Shown here: in pieces, positions 5,247 to 18,685 of the stretch
Layout of the letters: the number at the start of each line of letters is the position of its first letter
How positions within the stretch are numbered: the first letter of the stretch is position 1
From: Gemmatimonadota bacterium
GTDB lineage: Bacteria; Gemmatimonadota; Gemmatimonadetes; Longimicrobiales; Gaopeijiaceae
DNA: 64,000 nt
Assembly: GCA_030428885.1 (NCBI GenBank)
Contig: JAUIEJ010000004.1
Span: 248,001 to 312,000, forward strand
Reading direction: 5' to 3'
The notes under the pieces: model-generated
Database searches by the model: none
Told to the model about the DNA's origin: nothing
What the model saw: the letters and a program-made list of their open reading frames with translations, nothing else
Position numbers and translations under genes: made by a program

Positions 5247-5349
5247 ATCGTGGCGCAGCGAGCGCGGGAGCTCGCCATGTTCAGGCGGTCCAGGGGCGCA
5301 TACGCCCCCACGCATGCTACGGGGTTTCCCGGGCCGTAGCAAAGGCGCC
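5247..5349 (-). pseudogene. scar of a second nuclease-helicase gene (3' coding end fused to its promoter)
   Basis: Two short blocks match the intact helicase locus in the same orientation. Bases 5247-5295 align with 7598-7646 (about 42 of 49 identical), which encodes the last SF1 helicase motif; here it reads PLDRLNMASSRARCAT. Bases 5312-5349 align with 10994-11031 (about 34 of 38, including 19 identical bases at 5331-5349), which is the helicase promoter. Everything between the two blocks, about 3.3 kb in the intact gene, is missing. The start codon position is also lost. This is best read as a deleted helicase copy. The debris is in frame with the gene starting at 5194. Confidence 0.7.
5314..5342 (-). 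promoter_or_regulatory. captured helicase-type promoter
   Basis: On the minus strand this reads TTGCTA, 17 bp, TAGCAT, the same hexamers and spacing as the promoter of the intact helicase at 10996-11024. The initiation codon that should follow 6 nt downstream is gone. Transcripts from it would now run into the gene starting at 5194. Confidence 0.6.
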
Positions 5350-5464
5350 GGCCCCGCGACGCCACCGGATTGGCCCGGCCGATCCGGCCATGTCGGCGGT
5401 CGCCGGTGGTGTGCGATCATAGGCTCGCCGTTGAAGGACCGGCCTTTGAGGGTGATCTGTGAGC

Positions 5465-5532: not shown

Positions 5533-6594
5533 ATGGCCACCGCAGTCCGCGATCAGGTAGTCCGCCGGCTCAAGTCGGCGGGAGGAATCGGCGTGCAGTA
5601 CGGCGGGCCGGCCGATCTCGTGCTCACCCTCCAGGGGGCCGAGGTGCCGATCGTTCTCGAGATCAAGCACCGCCTGAATGAGTCCGACCTCGAGCGCTTC
5701 CTGGCCCGTGCCGGCGAGACGAGAGAGCCAACGGTTCTCGCAGTCCCTGCGCTCTCCTCCAGGCGACGCCAGGACCTCAAGCGCCGCAACGTCTCCTGGA
5801 TCGAGTACCACACCGGATTCGTGCACCTGCGGCTGCCGCATCTGGCCATCGACCTCCCCGAAGACCCGGAGTCGAAGGCGGATGCCACCAAGGGGGTGCC
5901 GAGCCTCGCCGGTAAGGCTGGGATCGTCGTGGAGGCTCTCCTCGAACGGGCGCGAAGCCAGGCACTCGTCGAGCAGCCCGATATCGCCGAGCTCTCGGGA
6001 AGCACCCAGGCGTGGACCAGCAAGGTGTTCAGCGCACTCGTCGAGGTCGAGGCGCTTGAGGTGGTGGGCGCGGGTCCCTCGAAGAGGTGGCGCCCTCGAC
6101 CGGACGCGCTGCTGCGTTTGTGGGAGGCCGATGGGGGGCCCGCGCCGACGGCGACCCCCATGTACCTCTGGAGCCGGACATCGGACGACCTGCTCCGGTC
6201 GCTGGGTCGCCTTGACGACGTTGTCGAGACCTACGCCATCGGGGGGGTGGCGGCGGTCAATCTCCACGAACCCACGCTTTCTTCCCTGCCTCTCGTGGAC
6301 GTCTGGATCCCCACATCCGAACCTCCGGCGAGAGTCGCCCAGGAGCTGGACGCCCAACTCATCGAGTCCGGAGCAAACGTCTTTCTCTGGCAAGCGTCCG
6401 ACGACCCCGCGCTGCGCCTGGCCGGACCGCTTCGGCGGTGGCGGGCGGAAGCACCCGAGGCTCTCGGCGGACTCTCGGTAGTCACTCCGGGCCGCGCCGT
6501 GGTGGAAGCGACGAAGGGTCCGGGCCGATCGCCAGAGGTCGGAGAGAACCTCCGGCGGAGAATCCTCGAAGAGAGTCCCATACACGATGGCTGA
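5533..6594 (+). CDS. AbiEi-like antitoxin / winged-helix protein
   Basis: This 353-residue protein precedes a nucleotidyltransferase toxin-like gene with an 8-base overlap, the layout of type IV AbiE systems. Residues 1-110 form an alpha/beta module (VLTLQGAEVPIVLEIKHRL, then VSWIEYHTGFVHLRLP) reminiscent of a degenerate restriction-endonuclease-like or Vsr-like domain. Residues 115-200 look like a winged helix (AGIVVEALLERARSQ ... KVFSALVEVEALEVV). The C-terminal third (IGGVAAVNLH ... VDVWIPTSEPP) fits the AbiEi_4-type antitoxin core. No Shine-Dalgarno is visible: the operator arm ends 2 nt before the ATG. The function as antitoxin and autorepressor is inferred from context. Confidence 0.65.
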   Translation: MATAVRDQVVRRLKSAGGIGVQYGGPADLVLTLQGAEVPIVLEIKHRLNESDLERFLARAGETREPTVLAVPALSSRRRQDLKRRNVSWIEYHTGFVHLRLPHLAIDLPEDPESKADATKGVPSLAGKAGIVVEALLERARSQALVEQPDIAELSGSTQAWTSKVFSALVEVEALEVVGAGPSKRWRPRPDALLRLWEADGGPAPTATPMYLWSRTSDDLLRSLGRLDDVVETYAIGGVAAVNLHEPTLSSLPLVDVWIPTSEPPARVAQELDAQLIESGANVFLWQASDDPALRLAGPLRRWRAEAPEALGGLSVVTPGRAVVEATKGPGRSPEVGENLRRRILEESPIHDG

Positions 6595-7486
6595 ACCCAG
6601 CCCAGGCGTACCGCCGATCCCCATCGAGGCGTACACGCCGGAGGCGCTCGCCGCCTGTGAGAAGGCTCTGAGGACGATCGTCTCACGAATCGGCGCGTGG
6701 GGCCCTCGACTCGTTCTCTTTGGAGGCCTTGCACCGCGCTACATCGTCGATTCCCCGCCTCCCGAGGTGGGCGAGCATTCGGGCACGACCGACCTGGACG
6801 TCGTGGTCGGCCTGGAGATCGGGGTGGATGACGAAGGGGTGTATACCAAGCTACAGCAGGAACTCACCAACGCCGGCTTCGCCGCCAGTGCTGGCGGCAG
6901 TTGGGCGTGGGAGCGTCGCGTCGACGGCGTTCGCGTCGTCCTGGAGTTCTTCTGCCCCGTCGAACCGGGCGGTCAACCGGGCAAGCTCCGAAGGAATCCC
7001 GGGGGCGAAGTCGGCTCCAGTATCTCGGCCATCCAGCTGCAGGGGGCCGAGATCGTCGGAACGGACCACCTCGCCATCGATCTGTCCGGCGAGGTGTTGG
7101 ACCACGGGGGTATCCGTGACGTGACGATCCGGGTGGCAAACATCCTTCCGTTCCTGGTCCTGAAGGCCTTCGCCCTCGAGACCCGGGACAAGGAGAAGGA
7201 TGCCTACGACATCGTGTGGACGCTCGACGCCTTCGGCGAGAAGGGCCCGGAGAGCGCTGCGGAGGCCGCCGCCGAGAGTCCCATCGCGGAGTCGGACGAA
7301 GCATCGGCAGCGTTCGCGATTCTGGAGGCTCGCTTCAGTGCGCCGGAAGGCCAGGGCCCCAGCAACTACGCGCGCTTCTTCCTGGGTGACGGCGGCGACG
7401 ACGACGAGAGGATGCGGCGTCGGAGGCACGCCCAGGGGACGGTTCAGGCGTTCCTGTCCGCTTGGCGGGCGATCCGAGGGGGCTAG
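6587..7486 (+). CDS. AbiEii-like nucleotidyltransferase (toxin candidate)
   Basis: The 299-residue protein has the DNA polymerase beta-type nucleotidyltransferase signature: LFGGLAPRYIV (Gly46-Gly47), then GTTDLDVVVG with the paired aspartates of TDLD at 68-71, and a third carboxylate in VVLEFF near 120. Further on, LKAFALETRDKEKDAYDIVW matches the Lys/Arg/Asp motif of AbiEii/MenA-like enzymes. Members of this family modify tRNA or other targets and are neutralised by the AbiEi partner (family knowledge). It overlaps the antitoxin gene by 8 bases. Its TAG stop sits in GGCTAGCC, which also holds the stop of the convergent helicase gene. Confidence 0.72.
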   Translation: MAEPSPGVPPIPIEAYTPEALAACEKALRTIVSRIGAWGPRLVLFGGLAPRYIVDSPPPEVGEHSGTTDLDVVVGLEIGVDDEGVYTKLQQELTNAGFAASAGGSWAWERRVDGVRVVLEFFCPVEPGGQPGKLRRNPGGEVGSSISAIQLQGAEIVGTDHLAIDLSGEVLDHGGIRDVTIRVANILPFLVLKAFALETRDKEKDAYDIVWTLDAFGEKGPESAAEAAAESPIAESDEASAAFAILEARFSAPEGQGPSNYARFFLGDGGDDDERMRRRRHAQGTVQAFLSAWRAIRGG

Positions 7487-10400
7487 CCTAGCCGCCACTC
7501 CCGCCCCACCTCCCGATACCGCACAAACGCGTTCACCATGCGGATCTGCTCGGGGGTGCGGCACTCGGCCTCGAACACCGCCGGGCTCGACACGATGATC
7601 GTGGCGCACCGGGCGCGGGACGTCGCCACGTTCAGCCGGTCGAGGGCGTACAGGAAGCTCATGCCCCGGGGGGCCTCCTCGGCGCTGGAGCTGGCCAACG
7701 AGTAGATCGCCACCGCTGCCTCCTGCCCCTGGAACTTGTCCACCGTGCCCACGTGGGCGTCGGGGTGGCCGGCCTCCGCCAGCCGCTCCTTCAACAGGTC
7801 GACCTGGGCGTTGTAGGGCGCCACGACCAGCAGGTCACTGCACTCGAGATCCCGGGTCGCGGGGACCTTCTTCGGATTCGTGAACGCCACCCCCGGCACC
7901 AGCAGCCGCCGGTACAGAGCCACCACTGCGGCGGCCTCCTCTTCCGACGCCTTGGCGTTGCCTTCGTGGGGCACCGGCACGTGGTACAGCCCGTGGAGCT
8001 CCGCCGCGTCGGGATGCGCCAGGCGCTGTTCTTCGAGATGCGCCCGCCAGCCCAGCTGCCCCTTGTAGAACAGCTCCGAGGTGTACGCCGTGATCTCGGG
8101 GCGCATGCGCCAGGTTTCCTCCAGAAACAGCCCGCGCTCGGCCGTCACGATCCCTCCCTCCCCCGCCAGGTGCTCCAGCACCGACGCCTCCGTGCCCGGC
8201 GGGTGGACGCCCTGCTGCGGCTGGGCCAGCTGCTGGGGGTCTCCGAGCAACACGAGGTTTCTGGCCGACGGGGCCACGGCCAGGGCGTCGGCCAGGGAGA
8301 ACTGCCCCGCCTCGTCGATGAACAGCACGTCCACCGGATCGTCGAGCCAGTGGTCGCTGCACCACATCCACGACGTGCCGGCGAAGAGGTTGAAGGGCGG
8401 CTCGCCGTCCTCCGCCCGCTTGGCGACCTCCCGGGCCACCTTGCCGCCGCTGGCCACCTGGGTGAAGCGGTCGTCCTCGCAGTGCTCGCCCGTGCCCACC
8501 TGGAGTCCCGCGAACGACCTTGCACCGTCATCGCCGTCGGCCTTGCACACCTCGTCAAGCAGATTGGTGATCACTTTGTGGCTGACGGCAGTCACCCCCA
8601 CGCGGTATCCGGCCCGGAGCAAGGCTCGGATCATGCGGGCCCCGGTGAAGGTCTTACCCGTGCCCGGCGGACCCTGCACGGGCAGCACTCCGTCGTCCAA
8701 CGCGAGGGCGGCTTCCCTCGCCCGCTCCAGCGACGGCGCACCTGGGGCGATCTCGGGGAGGCGATGGCCCCCCTTAAGACGGGGCGGGTCGCGTCTGAGG
8801 AGTCCCATGGATGTGCTGCTCCACTCCCGAAGCGGGTCCTCTCCGGCGAGCAGGCGCTCCGCCGTGGTCCGCAGACGCTTCCGGTGGCCCGGTGTGCGCA
8901 TGAGCTCGTTGGGCGTCACGCGCCGGATGCGGCGCACTTCGGCCTCGTCGACCGACTTCCCGATCTTCAGATCCAGGTGTCCCGCCTCGTCGTCGACGGC
9001 CCACACCGACCACGACTTGGTGTCGTCGCGATCCAGGTCCGCCGCGTCGCCCCCCGACTTGAGCCCGTGCTCCTGGGGCGCGAAGCGGAAGCGATGGGCC
9101 AGCGATCGATCCGCCGGGCCGATGCACCCGACGTATTCGAGATCCCCCAGGGGCTTCCGCTCGGCCACCAACTCGTCGGGCGACAGGTCGCGTAGCCGGT
9201 AGTACTCCCACCACCAGTTCTTCGCCTCGCGCCGGTGCCACTCGATCATGTGCGCTGCGAGCCAGCGCACGTGCTGCTGGTCGGTGCGATCGCCCGGCTC
9301 GTCGGGCACGTCGGCAAGCAGTCCCTCCATGAGCTCGCGCACCTCGCGGGCGGTGTCGGACTCGTCGGCCGCCTCCGTCTCGCCGGACCGCGGCTCCGGC
9401 CGCCCCAGCGGTTCCCCGTCCCGCGCCTCCAGCTCCCGGCGACGATGCTCGAGCCAGTCCCGGAGCGCCCGGGTCGAGATGCAGTCGTCCTTGTTGTAGC
9501 CCTCCACCACGGGGCGGGTGTCGCGCAGCGGGGCGCCGTCGGCCTTCAACGCCAGCGCCTTCTCCAGCACGCCCCGGGCGCGGTTGGCGTCGAGCAGCGC
9601 CACCGTCCGCTCGAATCCGTACAGCGGCTCGATCAGCTTGAGAGAGTACCCCTCCAGGCCCGCCCGGAGTCCCTGCTTCACGACGCGGAGCAGATCGACG
9701 AACGCCTCGGCCTTGAGCAGGGCGTCGAGTTCGTCGGTACCCTCGCCATAGCGAGCGGTGAGGCGCTTCAGGGTGCTGGGTTCCTTGGCGCCGTAGTGGT
9801 AGATGTGGGCGTCGGGGTGGTCTTCGATGTGGTTCAGCGCCCGGCGCAGGAACCCGATCAGCGCCCGCTTCTCGTGGGGCGCGGTGAGGGCCCACTCGGC
9901 GTCGTACGTGTCGTCGGCATACGAGACGCCCCACAGGTACTCGAGCCCGTGGTCGGTGGCGAGGCTCGCGGTCTCGAGATCGAAGAACCAGTCGTGGGGC
10001 GAGGGGTCGGGGAGGGCGGCGAGTCCGAGTCCCCGCCCCGTGTCGTCGTGGGCCCGATCGAGCAGTTCGTAGAGGGGCGTCTCGGTTTCGCGGGACTCCC
10101 ACTGGATCCGCGCCTGCTCCCGGATCGTCTCGAAACTCGCGGGGCGGAGCGGCTCGGGCACCGCGTCCAGCGGGTGCTTCGCGAGGGACTCCAGCGTCGT
10201 GATGCCCGCGGCTTCGAGCGCATGGCGATGGTCGCGCCGGATGCCCGCCACGAGAGACAGGTGGTCGACGTCGCGCCGTTCGCCGTCGCAGCGCTCCCGC
10301 CAGTTGCAGATGCCGCAGAGATCGACGGGCTCGGGGGCGCGTTCCGGGCCTTCGGCCCCTGGACCGTGTTCGGCGAGGAAGCGCGCCTTCAGGGCCCGGT

Positions 10401-10989
10401 AGTAGGCCCCGAAGTGGGCGAGGCGGAAGCTCTCCTTGCGAGCGTTCGGGCCGCCCAGGTAGAGGTGGATCTCCCGGGGCGTGGCTCCCTGCACTTGCTC
10501 GAGAAGCTCGGAGTACACGCAGCACTGGAAGATGGCCGTGGCCTTGGCCTCGCGGCTCAGCTTCGTGTCGAGCACCTCGTACGAGTACGGGCCGAAGTCG
10601 CTGGGCAGATCGTCGGTGCGGATCAGGAAGTCGACGAGGCCCAGCCACCGGCCGTCGTACAGAGTGCCCTGGTAGATGACGTCGGCGCCCGCGGCCATGG
10701 CCGCGCGGGTCTCTTCGGCCCGGCGGGTGTGGCCGGCGGCGTTGTATTCGTGCTTCGGGAGGGGCTCGAAGGCGATGACCGTCTTGCCCTCGCCTCGCAG
10801 CTTGTCGAGGTAGGCCCGTTCGTGCTCGATGCCCTTGGCCTGGAGCAGCTCGAGCAGCGGGTCCTCGTACTTGGCGTACGAGGCCTCGCCGTGGGCTCGG
10901 AGCCGGTCCAGGATCGTGCGCTGGCGGCAGCCCGAAAAGGCGGCGAGGTCGGTGGGCGAGAAGCGGAGGGTGTCGTCGTCGAGGCGCAT
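7483..10989 (-). CDS. RecB-like Fe-S nuclease / DnaQ-like exonuclease / SF1 helicase fusion
   Basis: The 1168-residue protein joins three enzymes. Residues 1-240 are a TM0106-type RecB nuclease: GLVDF (Asp120) and YEVLDTK (Asp141, Lys143) are the catalytic motifs, and Cys21 with Cys225, Cys228 and Cys234 match the four-cysteine Fe-S cluster of Cas4, AddB and Dna2. Residues 330-515 are an RNase H_2/YprB DEDD exonuclease (FFDLET at 335-340, YNKDD at 498-502). From about 745 there is a Dna2/UPF1-like SF1 helicase with GPPGTGKT (773-780), DVLFIDEAGQ, LVLLGDPQQLA and NVATSRARC. Such fusions process DNA ends in repair or phage defence. The start follows a -10 hexamer by 6 nt, so the mRNA is probably leaderless. 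Confidence 0.88.
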   Translation of the reverse strand: MRLDDDTLRFSPTDLAAFSGCRQRTILDRLRAHGEASYAKYEDPLLELLQAKGIEHERAYLDKLRGEGKTVIAFEPLPKHEYNAAGHTRRAEETRAAMAAGADVIYQGTLYDGRWLGLVDFLIRTDDLPSDFGPYSYEVLDTKLSREAKATAIFQCCVYSELLEQVQGATPREIHLYLGGPNARKESFRLAHFGAYYRALKARFLAEHGPGAEGPERAPEPVDLCGICNWRERCDGERRDVDHLSLVAGIRRDHRHALEAAGITTLESLAKHPLDAVPEPLRPASFETIREQARIQWESRETETPLYELLDRAHDDTGRGLGLAALPDPSPHDWFFDLETASLATDHGLEYLWGVSYADDTYDAEWALTAPHEKRALIGFLRRALNHIEDHPDAHIYHYGAKEPSTLKRLTARYGEGTDELDALLKAEAFVDLLRVVKQGLRAGLEGYSLKLIEPLYGFERTVALLDANRARGVLEKALALKADGAPLRDTRPVVEGYNKDDCISTRALRDWLEHRRRELEARDGEPLGRPEPRSGETEAADESDTAREVRELMEGLLADVPDEPGDRTDQQHVRWLAAHMIEWHRREAKNWWWEYYRLRDLSPDELVAERKPLGDLEYVGCIGPADRSLAHRFRFAPQEHGLKSGGDAADLDRDDTKSWSVWAVDDEAGHLDLKIGKSVDEAEVRRIRRVTPNELMRTPGHRKRLRTTAERLLAGEDPLREWSSTSMGLLRRDPPRLKGGHRLPEIAPGAPSLERAREAALALDDGVLPVQGPPGTGKTFTGARMIRALLRAGYRVGVTAVSHKVITNLLDEVCKADGDDGARSFAGLQVGTGEHCEDDRFTQVASGGKVAREVAKRAEDGEPPFNLFAGTSWMWCSDHWLDDPVDVLFIDEAGQFSLADALAVAPSARNLVLLGDPQQLAQPQQGVHPPGTEASVLEHLAGEGGIVTAERGLFLEETWRMRPEITAYTSELFYKGQLGWRAHLEEQRLAHPDAAELHGLYHVPVPHEGNAKASEEEAAAVVALYRRLLVPGVAFTNPKKVPATRDLECSDLLVVAPYNAQVDLLKERLAEAGHPDAHVGTVDKFQGQEAAVAIYSLASSSAEEAPRGMSFLYALDRLNVATSRARCATIIVSSPAVFEAECRTPEQIRMVNAFVRYREVGREWRLG

Positions 10990-10995
10990 CCGGGC

Positions 10996-11024
10996 ATGCT
11001 ACGCGCTTTCGTGGGCCGTAGCAA
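10996..11024 (-). promoter_or_regulatory. promoter of the nuclease-helicase gene
   Basis: On the minus strand this reads TTGCTA, a 17-bp spacer and TAGCAT, ending 6 nt before the ATG at 10989. With initiation about 7 nt after the -10 element the transcript would begin at or next to the start codon. No Shine-Dalgarno is present. Confidence 0.65.
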
Positions 11025-11041
11025 AGGCGCCCGCAGGGGAC

Positions 11042-11359
11042 TCAGCCCTCCGGATCCGACCCGGCGCGTTCCAGCACCTGAATCCGCCCCTCGTGATCGG
11101 CGAAACCGCGGCGAACGCTCTCGCCGAGGGCCTCGACCGCCCGCTCGATACGCAGTTCCAGACCCTCGGCCACCCCCTTCAGATTGGCCTGGGACTGCTC
11201 GAAGAGAACCGTCGCGTGGCGGCGAGCCTCGTGGCGGATTTCCTGGCGCTCGTTCCGGGCCTCCTCGAGCCGGCGATCGACGTGCTCGAACCTTCGGTCG
11301 ATCCGATCGAACTTGCCGCCGAGAAAGTCGACGAGTTCCGTGTACTGGTCGCTGGTCAT
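11042..11359 (-). CDS. small coiled-coil protein, paralogue 1
   Basis: This 105-residue charged helical protein has no signal peptide. It starts MTSDQYTELVDFLGGKFDRI, continues with a heptad-rich Arg/Glu segment (about 20-45), then RRHATVLFEQSQANLKGVAEG and a second short coil. The N-terminal block and the RHAxVLFEQSQANLxxVAEG block recur in two further genes of this window (16692-17054 and 18266-18649), so it is one of three paralogues. I know no function; the layout suggests an oligomerising adaptor. It lies between the helicase and the cysteine-rich/SNF2 pair and has its own promoter with a leaderless start. Confidence 0.75.
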   Translation of the reverse strand: MTSDQYTELVDFLGGKFDRIDRRFEHVDRRLEEARNERQEIRHEARRHATVLFEQSQANLKGVAEGLELRIERAVEALGESVRRGFADHEGRIQVLERAGSDPEG

Positions 11360-11365
11360 TCCCCC

Positions 11366-11394
11366 ATCCTACGGTGCTCACGGGGGCTCGTCCA
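11366..11394 (-). promoter_or_regulatory. promoter of coiled-coil paralogue 1
   Basis: On the minus strand this reads TGGACG, a 17-bp spacer and TAGGAT, ending 6 nt before the ATG at 11359. It shares hexamers, spacing and the GCCC stretch inside the spacer with the promoters of the other two paralogues. The -35 part lies inside the 3' end of the cysteine-rich protein gene. Confidence 0.65.
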
Positions 11395-13276
11395 TGCGCG
11401 AGAGGGACGTCAGCCGCCTCGTGAAGATCCTCCCGTGGAAGACGCCGGAGGTCACGACCTCGCTCCGGTGATCCAGGGCGAAGATCACGCTGCGGCCCCA
11501 GGAGGAGAGCTTCACCCGGGCGACGCGGCGGGTGGCGTCGCGGGCCACCGACCACTCGGCGGGGCGGCCCAGACCCGGGTCGACCAGGGCGGAAAAGGCC
11601 TCGATCAAGGCCTCGTCGGGATCGGCAGTGGGCTCGAGCCGGCCGCAGGTGCGGCACTCCTGCGACGACGGGTCCACGTCGCGGGTGCAGGCCCAGCCGC
11701 CGCATGACGCGCACGCGGCCCGGTGGCCGGCCGACACCCACTCTCCGCAGACCGGGCACGGGTCCAGTTCCGTGATCTTCCGGCGGCGTCCGTCCACCAC
11801 GCAGACCCCCTGGTGGGGGGGGCAGGCGAACTCGCCGGCCTCCAACTCCACCACGTGCTCCCGGCAGTGGGGCTCGCCGCACACGGCGCACACCTCCCGG
11901 TGCCGGGGGCAGACGTCGGCGCCGCACGTCCCGCAGGGGGCCACCTCGTCGACCCCCCGCACCTCGTCGTCCCGGCCGCGGCAGTACCGTACGCACGCCG
12001 GGCACAACGGCCGGGGCTCGGTGGCCGTGGGGGTCGTGCACGCCCGACACACCGCCTGGCCGCACGAGGCGCACGCCCCCAGACAGGTCGAGCAGACCGG
12101 TTGGTCGCACGAGAGGCAGAGCCCGGCGTGGTGGGCGCAGGTCGTGCCCGCACACGACGGACACCGCTGCCCGTGGGCGTCGCACACGGTGTGCGCCGGC
12201 ACCCCCTCCCCGCCCGGGCACGCGCCTCCGCCGTGATCCCCACAGCTCGTCGCCCCGCAGAGGCTGCACGACTCCGTACAGGCCGAGCAGACCATGTGGC
12301 CTCCGGTGCAGACCGCCCAGGCCTCGGGCGCGGGTGTGTGGCAGGTGGGGCACGGCAGCGCCCACCCCGCCTCGCCCACGAGCAGGCGCCGGCCCGTCAG
12401 CGTCGCCTCGGCCGCGCCGTCGTCCAGCACCATGAGGGCCCGTTCGGTCAGCACATAGCCCAGCTCCAGTTGCACGGGCCGCAGCTCGGCGCTGGCCTGA
12501 TTCCGGGCGATCTGTTCGGCGGTGCGCCGCTCGTGTTCCTGGCGGTACGCCCGCACGGCGTCCTCCGCGCCCTCGCCGTCGCCCGCCTCCTCCACGAGAC
12601 GGCCGTAGTAGGCGTCCAGCCGGGCGAGCTCCCGCTGGAGGGTCCGCTCCGCCTCCGCGCCCGCCCCCGCCAGCCACTGGGCGAGGCGGTCCTCGATGTC
12701 GTCCAGGAATCCGGGCAGCAGGGTCTCGAGGGGTCGAGGCTCGAGCACGGGGTGCGATCCGGAGTCCCATACCATCGCTTCTCCGCCTCCGATTCCCTCC
12801 GGCGCCTCCCCCAGGGGCTGCCCCGCGGTGAGGTCGAACCACCCGGTCTGGACGAGGCGGTCTTCGACCTGGCTTCCGGTGCGCACCGACGCGGCCAGGT
12901 GCAGGCGGCCCACGGGGAGCCATCCGGCCTCGACCCGAACCTCGCGCACCCGACCCCGCCGGAGCACGAGAGACGCCGTGGGCTGCACCGATCCCGGCGC
13001 ATCCGACGGCGCCACGAACCCCCGGTGCAGCCGCGCGCCCCGGCTCCGCACCGCGGCCAGGAGGTCGTGGGCGAAGCGGCTTCCCGCCACCGCCACCTCG
13101 GCGTCGGGATGCAGGTCCATGCTCTCGATGTCCAGCGCCAGCACCCGCGCCTCGCCCCCGAACCACGCCGCCTCCGAGGGGGCCGGACGGAAGACCCGGA
13201 GTCCCCCTTCGGGACGCTCCACGGAGCCTCCGGCCACCGCCACGTAGGCGTCCAGCAGACGCAGGACCTCGCTCAC
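11378..13276 (-). CDS. cysteine-rich multi-zinc-finger partner of the SNF2 ATPase
   Basis: The 632-residue protein starts at GTG 13276, overlapping the SNF2 stop as GTGA; the much longer open frame upstream is a shadow of the SNF2 gene. Residues 1-300 form a mixed domain with few cysteines (one stretch, 185-265, is helical and probably coiled). Residues 309-544 hold 39 cysteines, mostly as CxxC pairs with interspersed His (CPTCHTP, CSACTESCSLC, CPRHREVCAVCGEPHC), like a chain of treble-clef or B-box-like zinc ribbons. The last 90 residues (WSVARDATRRVARVKLSSWGR) form a separate basic domain. The tight coupling to SNF2 implies they work as a complex. The role is unknown; nucleic-acid or protein binding by the fingers is inference. 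Confidence 0.8.
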   Translation of the reverse strand: MSEVLRLLDAYVAVAGGSVERPEGGLRVFRPAPSEAAWFGGEARVLALDIESMDLHPDAEVAVAGSRFAHDLLAAVRSRGARLHRGFVAPSDAPGSVQPTASLVLRRGRVREVRVEAGWLPVGRLHLAASVRTGSQVEDRLVQTGWFDLTAGQPLGEAPEGIGGGEAMVWDSGSHPVLEPRPLETLLPGFLDDIEDRLAQWLAGAGAEAERTLQRELARLDAYYGRLVEEAGDGEGAEDAVRAYRQEHERRTAEQIARNQASAELRPVQLELGYVLTERALMVLDDGAAEATLTGRRLLVGEAGWALPCPTCHTPAPEAWAVCTGGHMVCSACTESCSLCGATSCGDHGGGACPGGEGVPAHTVCDAHGQRCPSCAGTTCAHHAGLCLSCDQPVCSTCLGACASCGQAVCRACTTPTATEPRPLCPACVRYCRGRDDEVRGVDEVAPCGTCGADVCPRHREVCAVCGEPHCREHVVELEAGEFACPPHQGVCVVDGRRRKITELDPCPVCGEWVSAGHRAACASCGGWACTRDVDPSSQECRTCGRLEPTADPDEALIEAFSALVDPGLGRPAEWSVARDATRRVARVKLSSWGRSVIFALDHRSEVVTSGVFHGRIFTRRLTSLSRMDEPP

Positions 13277-15438
13277 GGCCCGCGGCCCCCGGAGAGGATC
13301 CGGTCCGTCTCGTCGGTGAGGGGCGCCTCCGGCTCGGCGTCGACTTCCAGCAGCGTCACGGGGAGTCGATCCGCGGCGACCCGGAGCGAGACCCCCCGGG
13401 CCCGGCCCGTGGCCGAGTGGATCCAGACCGCGGGGCCGTAGTCGCTCATACCGGCGTCTTCGAGGCCGGCGGGCACGGGCGCGAGGCGCAGCGCTTCCTG
13501 GATCTCCGAGACGGCCAGGCCGAGGCCGAAGCGCGCCGCCTCGACGCCGGGGGCGAGGTTCATGAGGCGGGTGCCGTACGCCAACCGCACCCGGGCCGGG
13601 ATGGACAGCGCCGCAAACTCCCGCTCCAGGCGCTCGGCGTTGTCCAGAGGCGCGATGAAGCTCGAGCGCGCCTCGGCCTCCCGGGCCTCGGCGTAGCTCT
13701 CCTCCACCTCCCGCTCGATGGCTTCGACCTCCCGCTCGAAGGCCTCGTCGCTGGAGGCCGAAAGCCAGGCCTGGAGGAACCGCTGCTCGAGGTCCGAGGC
13801 GTCGTCGAAGCGGCCCAGAATCAGGTCGAGTTCGCCCACCACGAGTTCGAAGAGGCGGATCTTGTCCTGGAGCACCCTCAGGATCCGGTCTTCCACCGTG
13901 CCCGACGCGGCGAAGTTGTAGATCACCACCTCCCGCTTCTGGCCGATGCGATGCAGCCGGCCGATGCGCTGCTCCACCACGAGGGGGTTCCACGGCAGTT
14001 CGTAGTTCACCAGGACGTGGGCGAACTGGAGGTTCAGTCCCTCGGCCCCCGACCGGGAACTCAGGAGCACACTCCCGGGGGTGTCGCGAAACCGGCCCTT
14101 GAGGCGCGCGCGCCGGGCGCGATCGATGCCGCCGTGGTACGGGAACACCGGAATCCCCTGGGCCTCGAGGTGCCGGTGGATGAGGTCGATGGTGGGCCGG
14201 TGTTCGCTGAACACCACCAGGCGTTCGCCGTCGTGGGCCCGGACCACGGCGTCCAGCGCCCGGAGCTTGGCATGCGAGGTCACGGCCCGGGCCTGGCGCG
14301 CCAGCTCCTCGGCGCGATCGCGGAACTCTGGCCGCACCTCGGGTTTGTTCGAGAGGTTTTCCAGGGACTCGGCGATGGCGTGGCCCGACGAGCAGCTGCG
14401 CTGGGCCATCATGGTCCACACGAACTGGGCCGAGCGGCCGGTCCCTTCGTCCGGGAACATCCCCACCGCGTAGAGCTCCCGGAGGAACGACGTCACCGCC
14501 GTGTACAGGGCCCGCTCCGGCGCCTCGAGGTGGATCTCGGGACGATGGGGCCGGCGGGGCGGCAGATGGAGGTTCACGTTGGCCCGCTTGTTCCGGACCA
14601 TGACCTGGGCCGCCACGTCGCGAATCCCCGTGGGGTCGCGGGGCACCTGGGGATCGGAACCCATGTAGCGGCGCCGGAACTCCCGCCACGTCCCGAACTG
14701 CCCGGGCCGCAGAAGGGTGACCAGGTTGTAGAACTCCCGGAGGTCGTTCTGGAGCGGTGTGGCCGTGAGGAGTAGCAGGAAGTCCCGGGTGATGGTCTGG
14801 AGCGTGCGGTAGAGGGCCGTGCGGTGGTTCTTCGCCTTGTGGGCCTCGTCGACGATGACCATGTCCCAGGCCCGGCCCGTCACCAGGGGGCGGTTGCTCG
14901 CGTGCCGGGCCCGGGCGTGGCTGGCGATGAGGAGGTCGTGGCTGCTCCAGTCGTCCTTCTCGTCGACGATATGGAACTCCCGAAAGAACTTCTCGCTCAT
15001 CTCTTCCTGCCACTGATCCACGAGGGACGCCGGGCAGAGCACGAGCACCGATTTCACCAGGCGCCGGGCGAGAAGCTCGTTGAGCACGAGGCCCGCTTCG
15101 ATGGTCTTGCCCAGCCCCACCTCGTCGGCCAGCAGCGCCCGCCCCGACATCTCCCGCAGCACCCGGATCGCCGTGTCGGTCTGGTGCGGGAACTCCTCGA
15201 TGGTGTTGGCATCGAGGGCGATGAGTTCTTCGAACCCGGGGCGGAGGGCGAGCCGTTCGGCCTGCTGGCGAAGGCGAAACCAGGGCTGGGCGTCGGGGTC
15301 GGGCCGCGCCGCGTCCATCGGCCCCGACACCGCCCCCAGGAATTCCCGGATCTGCTGCTCCGCGAACCGGAACCGCACCTGCCCTTCCCGGAGGCGGACG
15401 CGCTCGTGGAGCCAGTTGAGATCGCCGTGGAACTCCAT
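13273..15438 (-). CDS. SNF2-family ATPase/helicase
   Basis: The 721-residue protein starts at ATG 15438 behind a GGAGAGGAGAGG ribosome site. The N-terminal 80 residues are helical. The ATPase has DEVGLGKT (105-112), VLVLCPASL (132-139), the DEAH box at 197-200 and TATPLQND (225-232). The second RecA lobe includes VVFSEHR, VLLSSRSGAEGLNLQ, LVNYELPWNPLVVEQRIGR and LHRIGQKR. The last 200 residues have a Glu-rich helical segment (FEREVEAIEREVEESYAEA). The layout is RapA/HepA-like, lacking an obvious nuclease domain. SNF2 ATPases translocate on double-stranded DNA and remodel bound proteins; relatives occur in DISARM-type defence. The partner is the downstream cysteine-rich protein. Confidence 0.92.
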   Translation of the reverse strand: MEFHGDLNWLHERVRLREGQVRFRFAEQQIREFLGAVSGPMDAARPDPDAQPWFRLRQQAERLALRPGFEELIALDANTIEEFPHQTDTAIRVLREMSGRALLADEVGLGKTIEAGLVLNELLARRLVKSVLVLCPASLVDQWQEEMSEKFFREFHIVDEKDDWSSHDLLIASHARARHASNRPLVTGRAWDMVIVDEAHKAKNHRTALYRTLQTITRDFLLLLTATPLQNDLREFYNLVTLLRPGQFGTWREFRRRYMGSDPQVPRDPTGIRDVAAQVMVRNKRANVNLHLPPRRPHRPEIHLEAPERALYTAVTSFLRELYAVGMFPDEGTGRSAQFVWTMMAQRSCSSGHAIAESLENLSNKPEVRPEFRDRAEELARQARAVTSHAKLRALDAVVRAHDGERLVVFSEHRPTIDLIHRHLEAQGIPVFPYHGGIDRARRARLKGRFRDTPGSVLLSSRSGAEGLNLQFAHVLVNYELPWNPLVVEQRIGRLHRIGQKREVVIYNFAASGTVEDRILRVLQDKIRLFELVVGELDLILGRFDDASDLEQRFLQAWLSASSDEAFEREVEAIEREVEESYAEAREAEARSSFIAPLDNAERLEREFAALSIPARVRLAYGTRLMNLAPGVEAARFGLGLAVSEIQEALRLAPVPAGLEDAGMSDYGPAVWIHSATGRARGVSLRVAADRLPVTLLEVDAEPEAPLTDETDRILSGGRGP

Positions 15439-15615
15439 CAGGCTCGTGCCTCTCCTCTCCAGCGTGCGCGCGTCCGAACACCCCGCCGAACTGCCGCGCG
15501 CAGAATGCCCATCGACTCGCCCCCCGGGCAAGCATGTGAGCGGTCGGGTCCCGTGATCGCTTTCAGCCCGCTTTCCGGCGTGTAGGGGTGAACGCACCCT
15601 CACCCGGAGACTGCC

Positions 15616-16716
15616 ATGCCCTCGCCGCGCTCCCGCTTCGACGCCTTCGTCCACGCCCTGGTCCGCCATCTGGCGGTGTGTGCGGCGCTGGCCCTGGCCC
15701 TTCCCACCCGGCGCTACATTCGCGGGCAGGTCTACAGCTACACGGCCCGGGCCGAGGCCGGCATGTACTACAAGCAGGCGGCGAAGCTGCAGGCGGCCTG
15801 GAATGCCGTCTACGCGGGGGTCGCCGGGCTGTGCACCATGTATCTCGGGGGACTCATCATGGGCGCCTTCGCCCGGAGCGCGGGGGTCGGTGCCCAGGCA
15901 GCCCGGGGTGCTGCAAGCGCGGCGGCCACGACCACGGGGGAGGTGACGGCGGTGAGCACCGCGGGAGCGGCCGCCACCGAGACCACGGTGGCGGTGGGAT
16001 CGACGGCCGGCCGAGGCCTGCTGGCCCGCACCGTCTCACGGATCGTGGCCGCCCTCGGTCGCGTCGCCCCGTGGAATCCGGCGGTGGTGGAGACCACGAT
16101 TCTGGAGATGACCCTGGGCGTGCCCGTGCGCGGCGCGTTGAGCCTCGCCGGTGCCACGGTCACCGACGAGGTCATCGGCCGGGCCCGCTTCGGGAAGCTC
16201 GCTTCCGCACCGGTGGCCGGAGCGTTGGGCGGGGTGGCGAGGGTGGGCCCGGTGGCTCCCCTGGTGATGAACCACATGGCGGGCGCGGCCGAGGACGAAC
16301 TCCGGCGACGGTGGGCCGAAGAGATCTCCCGGCCCGAAGCCGAGGCCGTGGTCGCCGACGCGCTGGAGTGTGCCGGCCGGGTGCTCGACGCGCGGGTCAA
16401 GGCGTGCGGCCGATTCGCCCCCCTCCTGCTGGTCCCCCCCAGCACCCTCGACTCGACGATCCGCCTCGCAGCCGAGAACCGCGCCCGCGGAATCACGCAC
16501 CGCATCGTGAAGGCCAACACGGGGCTCTTCTGGGGTCCGGACCGACAGGAGGTTCGGACCGAGGTCGACGCCCGGTTCGGCGCCGAGATCTGGGCCCCCA
16601 TCGCCCGCGACACCGACGCCGCCTTCAACGCGCTCCATCAGGAGTTCCTTCACACCCGCATCGCCATGGACCGGGCGTTTCGCCGGTGGGCCTACGCCCC
16701 GCCCTCCGGCAACTGA
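15616..16716 (+). CDS. predicted membrane protein of unknown function
   Basis: This 366-residue protein has two N-terminal hydrophobic segments (about 14-30, HLAVCAALALALPT; about 65-85, YAGVAGLCTMYLGGLIMGAF) and then an Ala/Thr/Gly-rich stretch (90-150) with hydrophobic character. The C-terminal half is soluble and helical, with regularly spaced charged residues (EDELRRRWAEEISRPEAEAV). I recognise no family. It runs divergently from the SNF2 gene, and its last 25 bases overlap the convergent coiled-coil gene. Confidence 0.65.
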   Translation: MPSPRSRFDAFVHALVRHLAVCAALALALPTRRYIRGQVYSYTARAEAGMYYKQAAKLQAAWNAVYAGVAGLCTMYLGGLIMGAFARSAGVGAQAARGAASAAATTTGEVTAVSTAGAAATETTVAVGSTAGRGLLARTVSRIVAALGRVAPWNPAVVETTILEMTLGVPVRGALSLAGATVTDEVIGRARFGKLASAPVAGALGGVARVGPVAPLVMNHMAGAAEDELRRRWAEEISRPEAEAVVADALECAGRVLDARVKACGRFAPLLLVPPSTLDSTIRLAAENRARGITHRIVKANTGLFWGPDRQEVRTEVDARFGAEIWAPIARDTDAAFNALHQEFLHTRIAMDRAFRRWAYAPPSGN

Positions 16717-17054
16717 GTTCGCTCCGCCCCACCGGTGAGGGCCTCGACGACCTGCTCCAGCGATTCCACCCTTCCGGTGAGACGGACGAGCCCGTTCTCC
16801 ACCCCCTCCATCCGCAGGCCCAGGCCTTCGGCCACCGTGTTGAGGTTGGCCTGCGACTGCTCGAAGAGCACCAGGGCGTGGCGCCGGGACTCCTCGAACA
16901 GCCTCTCGCGCTCGTGCCGCGCCTCGGCGCGGATCTCCTCGCGCTCACGCTTCGCCTCTTGGCGCTCGCGCTTCGCCTCATCGAACTGTTCATCGATGCG
17001 GGCGAACTTCCGGCCCAGGAAGTCGACGAGCTGGGTGTACTGGTCGGTGGTCAT
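16692..17054 (-). CDS. small coiled-coil protein, paralogue 2
   Basis: This 120-residue protein begins MTTDQYTQLVDFLGRKFARI and has a long Lys/Arg/Glu heptad region (22-60, QEAKREREEIRAEARHERER). The shared block RRHALVLFEQSQANLNTVAEG follows, and a final coil ends in VESLEQVVEAL. It is a paralogue of the genes at 11042-11359 and 18266-18649; this copy has the longest central coil without the repeated aspartate heptads of paralogue 3. The start ATG lies 6 nt after a -10 hexamer (leaderless). The function is unknown. Confidence 0.75.
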   Translation of the reverse strand: MTTDQYTQLVDFLGRKFARIDEQFDEAKRERQEAKREREEIRAEARHERERLFEESRRHALVLFEQSQANLNTVAEGLGLRMEGVENGLVRLTGRVESLEQVVEALTGGAERTQLPEGGA

Positions 17055-17060
17055 GCTCCC

Positions 17061-17089
17061 ATCCTATGGTGAGCGCCCGGGCCCGTCCA
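17061..17089 (-). promoter_or_regulatory. promoter of coiled-coil paralogue 2
   Basis: On the minus strand this reads TGGACG, a 17-bp spacer and TAGGAT, ending 6 nt before ATG 17054. The element is shared in sequence and spacing with the promoters at 11366 and 18657. Confidence 0.65.
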
Positions 17090-17140
17090 TGTGGGAATCG
17101 GCCCGCGGTCCCCCATGCACCCGCTCTCCAACGACGCACC

Positions 17141-18253
17141 GTGGCCGAACCCCTCAAGAACGCCTTCGGGCCCGACGTGCCGGCCCGGATCGCCCGCATG
17201 ATCTCGGCCGTCGCTCCCGACTTCGACGACCGGCGTTTCCTGGCCCTCGCCCTGGACGGATTCGACGACCTCGAGCTCACCCCCCGGGCGCGTCGCATCT
17301 CCGACGCCCTGGCCCAGACCCTGCCCGGGGACCGGGCCGCCGCCCTCGACCTCCTCGTGGCGTCTCTCGGCCCCGAATCCGGCGACGCCAAGCTCACGGG
17401 CATGGCCGCCTTTCTGTACCTGCCCCACGTCTTCTTCGTGGCCGACCACGGCATCGGGCATTTCGAAGAGTCGATGCGGGCCCAGCACGAACTCACCCGG
17501 CGTTTCACCGCCGAGTTTTCCATCCGCGCGTTCCTGGAGCGCTATCCCCGGCGCACGCTGGACCGGCTGGCCCAGTGGGCCACCGATCCGAACGTCCACG
17601 TCCGGCGGCTCGTCTCCGAGGGCACCCGCCCTCGCCTGCCCTGGGCCCCCCGGCTGCCCGCCTTTCAGAACGACCCGTCTCCGGTGCTGGAACTGCTCGA
17701 GATGCTCAAGGACGATCCCGAGGAGTACGTCCGGCGCTCCGTGGCCAACAATTTGAACGACATCGCCAAGGATCACCCCGAACTCGTGGTGGAGGTGGCC
17801 CGGCGATGGTGGAGATCGGGGACTCCGGATCGGCGCCGCCTCGTGCGCCACGGGCTCCGCACCCTCATCAAGGCCGCCCACCCCGGGGCCCTGGGGGTCA
17901 TGGGCTTCGGAGCCGACTCCCCGGCCCGCGTCCGCGAGATCCGGTGCACGCCCACCGTGCTGAAGATCGGCGACAAGATCCGCATCGAGGTCGTGGTGGA
18001 GAATCCCGACACCCAGGATGCGGCGGCCCTGGTGGACCTGCGGGTACACTTCGTGAAGGCCACCGGCGGCACCCGCCCGAAGGTCTTCAAGGGCGCCGAG
18101 CTCGAACTCGCCCCCGGAGGCGAGGCCACGGTGCGCAAGACCATCTCCCTGGCCCAGCGCACCACCCGCACCCACTACCCCGGCACCCACCGCGTCGACG
18201 TCCTTCTCAACGGACGCACCGTGGACGGGCCGGAGTTCGAGCTGGGGGGCTGA
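17141..18253 (+). CDS. DNA alkylation repair protein, AlkC type, with Ig-like tail
   Basis: The 370-residue protein starts at GTG 17141, where the family N-terminus VAEPLKNAFGP appears; an upstream ATG at 17066 would add unrelated sequence. Residues 1-260 are HEAT-like repeats of the AlkC/AlkD glycosylase superfamily. Characteristic stretches are MAAFLYLPHVFFVADHG, FEESMRAQHELTRRFTAEF, DPNVHVRRLVSEGTRPRLPW and RRSVANNLNDIAKDHPE. These enzymes excise alkylated bases such as 3-methyladenine. Residues 280-370 form a beta-rich Ig/CARDB-like domain (KIGDKIRIEVVVENPDTQDAA), an extension known in some AlkC proteins. It sits between two coiled-coil paralogues on the opposite strand. Confidence 0.9.
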   Translation: MAEPLKNAFGPDVPARIARMISAVAPDFDDRRFLALALDGFDDLELTPRARRISDALAQTLPGDRAAALDLLVASLGPESGDAKLTGMAAFLYLPHVFFVADHGIGHFEESMRAQHELTRRFTAEFSIRAFLERYPRRTLDRLAQWATDPNVHVRRLVSEGTRPRLPWAPRLPAFQNDPSPVLELLEMLKDDPEEYVRRSVANNLNDIAKDHPELVVEVARRWWRSGTPDRRRLVRHGLRTLIKAAHPGALGVMGFGADSPARVREIRCTPTVLKIGDKIRIEVVVENPDTQDAAALVDLRVHFVKATGGTRPKVFKGAELELAPGGEATVRKTISLAQRTTRTHYPGTHRVDVLLNGRTVDGPEFELGG

Positions 18254-18265
18254 GTACCCTCCCCG

Positions 18266-18649
18266 TCAGGATCCCTCGCGCACGGTCTCTCTCAGGTCGC
18301 GAACGATCTCTTCGAGCCTGTCGATGCGGAACCCGATGCCCTCGGCCACCGCCGCGAGGTTGGCCTGGGACTGCTCGAAGAGCACGACCGCGTGGCGGCG
18401 AGTCTCCTCGAACTGTCGATCGATGCTCTCGAACCGCCGGTCGTGGTCGTCGAACCGCCGGTCGTGGTCGTCGAACCGCCGGTCGTGGTCGTCGAACCGG
18501 CGGTCGTGGTCGTCGAGGCGCTGATCGTGGCCGTCGAGGCGCTGCTCGATGCGGTCGAACCGGCGGTCCATGCCGTCGAACCGGCGATCGATCCCGTCGA
18601 ACTTCCGCCCGAGGAACCCGATCAGTTCCGAGTACTGGTCGCTCGTCAT
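18266..18649 (-). CDS. small coiled-coil protein, paralogue 3, with heptad repeats
   Basis: The 127-residue protein starts MTSDQYSELIGFLGRKFDGI, then carries about nine near-identical heptads of the type DRRFDDH, then RRHAVVLFEQSQANLAAVAEG and a final coil. The start ATG 18649 is preferred over ATG 18658 because both paralogues begin at the same residue and because the -10 hexamer then lies 7 nt upstream, as in the other copies. The heptads predict a rigid, Asp/His/Arg-rich coiled coil and could vary in number by slippage. The function is unknown. The gene lies 44 bp beyond the end of the M14 peptidase gene. Confidence 0.75.
   Translation of the reverse strand: MTSDQYSELIGFLGRKFDGIDRRFDGMDRRFDRIEQRLDGHDQRLDDHDRRFDDHDRRFDDHDRRFDDHDRRFESIDRQFEETRRHAVVLFEQSQANLAAVAEGIGFRIDRLEEIVRDLRETVREGS
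18410..18598 (-). repeat. nine 21-bp tandem units inside coiled-coil paralogue 3
   Basis: The plus strand shows 21-bp units beginning GAACCGCCGG or variants, at 18410, 18431, 18452, 18473, 18494, 18515, 18536, 18557 and 18578. The units at 18431, 18452 and 18473 are identical and the one at 18494 differs by one base. Each unit encodes one heptad, so copy-number change keeps the frame. Confidence 0.85.
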
Positions 18650-18656
18650 GAAGTCC

Positions 18657-18685
18657 ATGCTACGACGGGTTCCGGGGCTCGTCCA
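18657..18685 (-). promoter_or_regulatory. promoter of coiled-coil paralogue 3
   Basis: On the minus strand this reads TGGACG, a 17-bp spacer and TAGCAT, ending 7 nt before ATG 18649. It has the same architecture as the two other paralogue promoters. Confidence 0.62.

Follow-up and report, generated by a model that had tools for sequence, protein, structure and literature searches.

A multi-block promoter-like element precedes dispersed coiled-coil genes in two families of Longimicrobiales

The window, that is, the whole stretch of 64,000 nucleotides that was analysed from a Gemmatimonadota bacterium (contig JAUIEJ010000004.1, positions 248,001 to 312,000), carries three short coiled-coil genes and a fused nuclease-helicase gene on its minus strand. 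The start codons of these genes are backed by homologues, and a -10 box lies 6-7 nt before the start codon at all four. The features are as follows.

11366..11396, minus strand: predicted promoter A, with CATGG at 11392-11396, GCCC at 11384-11387 and the -10 TAGGAT at 11366-11371, 6 nt from the ATG
11042..11359, minus strand: coiled-coil gene A, 105 aa, beginning MTSDQYTELVDFLGGKF
17061..17101, minus strand: predicted promoter B, the full element CCGAT-N5-CATGG-N4-GCCC-N12-TAGGAT, 6 nt from the ATG
16692..17054, minus strand: coiled-coil gene B, 120 aa
18657..18697, minus strand: predicted promoter C, the full element CCCAT-N5-CATGG-N4-GCCC-N12-TAGCAT, 7 nt from the conserved ATG
18266..18658, minus strand: coiled-coil gene C, with the conserved start MTSDQY at 18649
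10996..11024, minus strand: promoter-like site of the helicase gene, TTGCTA-N17-TAGCAT, 6 nt from the ATG
7483..10989, minus strand: TM0106-type RecB-like nuclease fused to an SF1 helicase, 1168 aa
5314..5342, minus strand: second copy of the helicase upstream site, preceding a helicase remnant at 5247-5295

The three coiled-coil paralogues are mutually 61-62% identical, and their upstream homology runs on continuously from the genes. PADLOC (known anti-phage defence families) returned no match for the three proteins, and Pfam gave generic coiled-coil matches with no confident family. A viral origin was rejected, as viral contigs hold no relatives. Gene C has a further in-frame ATG at 18658 that overlaps the -10, and contains a run of 21-base repeats at 18399-18614 (seven-residue units, RRFDDHD), which suggests length change through repeat expansion. 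With one profile, coiled-coil genes of this kind were found in 12 of 154 genomes of the order, where they are dispersed and mostly occur in genomes lacking the helicase. At four loci of the genus (L098, L100, L101 and L102) they have close by a short gene that by eye resembles a PadR-type regulator and is paired with a large permease-like gene of ~900 aa.

Other genes of the window were noted alongside. A two-gene pair on the plus strand (5533-7486), the second member of which is by eye nucleotidyltransferase-like (AbiEii-like), gave no hit in Pfam, PADLOC or NCBIfam under the thresholds applied. On the minus strand, a SNF2/RapA-like helicase (13273-15438) scores below the DISARM DrmD and DpdE cut-offs and is followed by a cysteine-rich protein with no assigned family (11378-13276).

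A sequence-only reading of this DNA had described the four sites as one element, and the features on which it relied are all present: the hexamer TTGCTA or TGGACG, a 17-base spacer, the -10 TAGSAT and 6, 6, 6 and 7 nt to the ATG. A genome search of the kind that it proposed, with TGGACG-N17-TAGSAT, gives exactly three matches in 5.39 Mb, all before the coiled-coil paralogues, and none in the reversed control. The -10 and its distance from the ATG carry no such specificity, as TAGSAT-N6/7-ATG occurs 13 times genome-wide against 13 in the reversed control, with 4 of the 13 in the window. Comparison with relatives redefines the upstream block as CATGG rather than TGGACG, because ACG is missing from most homologues outside the genus. 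In a background sample of 444 kb of own-genome stretches, CATGG-N20-TAnnnT is found only at the three coiled-coil genes; CATGG is thus not a general -35, and it was rejected as such. Adding GNCC to the genome-wide search brought one extra match (C1:84049), which lacks the CCCAT block and is read as chance. Elsewhere in the genome, one more coiled-coil gene, the fourth, retains CCGAT-N5-CATGG-N4-GCCC, followed by a -10 that is weak. As far as this genome was searched, the element therefore marks only coiled-coil genes, three strictly and one with a weak -10.

The element extends well beyond this genome. Among the upstream sequences of 26 coiled-coil homologues, selected by protein and not by motif, 16 contain CATGG-N19-21-TAnnnT, against a mean of 0.03 and a maximum of 1 in 1000 dinucleotide shuffles, and in many CC[CG]A[TA] stands ten bases before CATGG. 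The combined pattern CC[CG]A[TA]-N5-CATGG-N20-TAnnnT has 70 matches in 121 genomes of the same bacterial family against 3 in the reversed control; the 70 include mutual orthologues and some matches inside coding sequence (for example L219, L223 and L234), so that independent sites number fewer than 70, and the few in coding sequence are probably chance. In a class-wide sample, the sister family f3 yields 4 matches against 0 in the control, family f2 yields 0 against 2 and the remainder 7 against 7 (elsewhere in the class together 7 against 9). Outside f1 and f3 the pattern is thus about as frequent as in the control, which argues against a composition artefact.

Positions that the query left free still show a consensus, with T at 5, G at 20 and C at 22-23. 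A GNCC block four bases after CATGG emerges from these unconstrained positions, and the other spacer bases are near background. This block accounts for the shared spacer bases from which the sequence-only reading had argued for common origin or a common extra factor: GCCC is present at the three coiled-coil sites and belongs to the family-wide consensus, but at the helicase site it stands one base off register. The promoter predicted to be shared by the three coiled-coil genes, and the spacer bases as a pointer to an extra factor, hold across genera. The dyad in the element is only partial (CCAT-N6-ATGG), the position that follows CATGG has no preference for G and the flanking base is asymmetric. 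Promoter A lacks the upstream CC[CG]AT block and the copy at L009 (genome G045) lacks CATGG, which means that the upstream part is not an absolute requirement. A coiled-coil copy in the same-genus genome G042 that lies directly behind other genes has neither promoter nor element, as expected if the element is a promoter. Taken together, these comparisons establish, at the level of sequence, a multi-block promoter-like element with fixed spacing that is limited to two families of one order.

The distance between the -10 and the start codon is a separate matter. Within the 444 kb sample, distances in TAnnnT-ATG-ORF arrangements peak at 6 and 7 nt (8 + 8 cases, against ~1-2 at most others). Twelve of these 16 cases lie outside the window before unrelated genes, and several of the other 6-7 nt promoters have TTG near the -35, like the helicase site. 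The arrangement is therefore a general leaderless-type signature that does not link genes, and co-regulation should not be concluded from similar -10/ATG spacing alone. The leaderless starts predicted earlier are plausible given this enrichment, but the spacing is not conserved: among the 16 element-bearing homologues the -10 lies 6-7 nt from the ATG in just 8 and 32-42 nt in 8, and the helicase orthologues are without the -10/ATG arrangement. In this genus, the coiled-coil genes may be transcribed as leaderless mRNAs. At another locus (L055, ~10799-10845), the predicted leaderless-type -10 boxes of a divergent gene pair are no more than ~50 bp apart.

To account for the demonstrated conservation, specificity and spacing, the best explanation, which we consider reasonably probable, is that each coiled-coil gene is served by a separate copy of a lineage-specific promoter, CC[CG]AT-N5-CATGG-N4-GCCC-N12-TAnnnT, with the site of a dedicated regulator near -40. 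TAnnnT would serve as a sigma-70-type -10 at which transcription initiates, and CATGG would replace the usual TTG-type -35. We infer that CATGG and the CCCAT block one helical turn upstream most likely bind this regulator, with the dyad near -40, and that it is probably an activator touching RNA polymerase. With the -10 usually 6-7 nt before the ATG in the genus, the 5' end of the mRNA would fall on or beside the start codon. Selection would keep the element across genera, where it would also serve other small accessory genes, and the helicase would be transcribed separately, from a promoter of the type general in this genome, perhaps under the control of the palindrome there.

The genes behind the element are varied. 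It precedes soluble and membrane-anchored coiled-coils, Uma2 genes, a nucleotidyltransferase-like gene, antitoxin genes (MazE type and two Unstab_antitox) and a family of ~187 aa proteins without a Pfam match; further matches precede ssb, M42 peptidases, asparaginases and efflux genes. The short coiled-coil genes, a widespread family with no assigned function, thereby share a promoter class with antitoxin genes. Tentatively, two Longimicrobiales families could possess an undescribed regulator, or an undescribed alternative sigma factor, that controls through this three-block promoter a dispersed regulon of soluble and membrane-anchored coiled-coils, antitoxins, Uma2 nucleases and other short genes that repeatedly picks up mobile genes. 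We consider this broader proposal possible, and the element offers a testable promoter class for Gemmatimonadota, a phylum for which our literature search found no promoter map.

A dedicated regulator would be superfluous if these were plain vegetative promoters whose -35 happens to be CATGG-like. The position and spacing of CATGG do fit a -35, and the -10 is ordinary. We nevertheless regard this as unlikely: CATGG at this spacing is absent from the other sampled regions of the genome, where several leaderless-type promoters have TTG at -35, the blocks CCCAT and GCCC are conserved outside the -35, and the element is restricted to two families of one order. It is more doubtful still that the upstream likeness was simply carried along when the coiled-coil genes were duplicated, leaving a plain promoter with no special function. 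The 61-62% identity of the paralogues and the continuity of the upstream homology with the genes are what such duplication would leave, yet in other genera the blocks are still present before homologues of ~35-40% protein identity, where the spacer is no longer alike, and they also stand before unrelated genes. By these sequence comparisons, the common upstream sequence is not only a product of recent duplication.

The proposal that one promoter and factor join the nuclease-helicase and the coiled-coil genes into one expression unit, and the island into a working system, fares much worse, and we consider it very improbable. The -10 type, the 17 bp spacing and the ATG distance are indeed common to all four sites, but these are the only features that the helicase site shares, and they are found before unrelated genes. 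It has neither CATGG nor CCCAT, and its TTGCTA-N17-TAGCAT is a predicted TTG/TAnnnT promoter overlain by the inverted repeat TGCTACG...CGTAGCA. The palindrome, TTGCTACG-N8..14-CGTAGCA, is confined to the two helicase copies; it was not found in the same-genus orthologue (57% identical) or in three further near-full-length homologues. It may be the helicase's own operator; a stem-loop function was rejected, since RNA folding gave z-scores of only -1.1 to -1.3. The second copy of the site, reported earlier as a fifth, is present within a duplicated upstream stretch (5303-5352, 82% identity over 50 nt), but it has no ATG at the expected distance and is followed immediately by a piece of the helicase C-terminus. 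Two more short stretches that match the C-terminal half of the helicase at 70-84% identity lie ~2.2 kb before window base 1 (G000:C11:245546-245787), so that more than one decayed helicase copy is present nearby.

Gene distribution leads to the same view. Helicase relatives occur in 33 of 154 genomes of the order, only five of them essentially full-length, and the helicase and the coiled-coil genes each occur in genomes without the other. Both are clearly present only in this genome and in G042, where a partly conserved neighbourhood offers the island some support: a WYL pair, an HP0729-like gene, the helicase, an M14 peptidase and one coiled-coil gene lie within ~30 kb, with the helicase and the coiled-coil gene ~20 kb apart. 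A search of G042 for the SNF2 gene gave no match, and the coiled-coil gene of this neighbourhood is the copy noted above that has no such promoter. In relatives the coiled-coil genes are scattered, and most belong to genomes that lack the helicase; neither the expression unit nor the working system is supported by this evidence.

Of the family matches, two precede recA and two precede ssb, which might suggest an SOS (LexA) box and DNA-damage inducible genes, but this has next to no credibility, as the full element occurs in only 2 of 31 scanned recA upstreams, both roughly at least 150 nt before the start, and recA of the same genus is preceded by another conserved sequence (ACTTTCGCATTCTCTTCGGGT...TAGAAT in G000), without the CCCAT/CATGG element. 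The recA upstreams of G000, G045 and G046 (L272, L269 and L266) share ACTTTCG(C/T)ATTCT(C/G)TTCGGGT and, after it, a TAGA-type -10; in this genus the sequence is a candidate site for an SOS or damage response.

Among known systems, the helicase gene matches TIGR03491 above the cut-off and is of the same kind as the TM0106 family, a RecB-like nuclease with an IGHMBP2-like SF1 helicase; its upstream site differs from the coiled-coil promoter. In class II activator-dependent sigma-70 promoters of the CRP/FNR type, the activator site is centred near -41.5. The coiled-coil element resembles these in that a partly symmetric, conserved site near -40 overlaps and replaces the normal -35 where no consensus -35 is present, and differs in its half-site (CCCAT/ATGG), its extra GCCC block and its incomplete symmetry. 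Leaderless-type TAnnnT promoters have been described in Actinobacteria and Deinococcus (Zheng et al. 2011, PMC3160421; Deinococcus-Thermus, PMC12340547), and the main text of both papers is without Gemmatimonadota. As in those high-GC promoters, TAnnnT lies ~12 bp before the start codon here, and this genome has the same 6-7 nt peak. Unlike them, the coiled-coil promoters add the conserved CCCAT, CATGG and GCCC blocks, and keep these blocks even with a leader of 32-42 nt.
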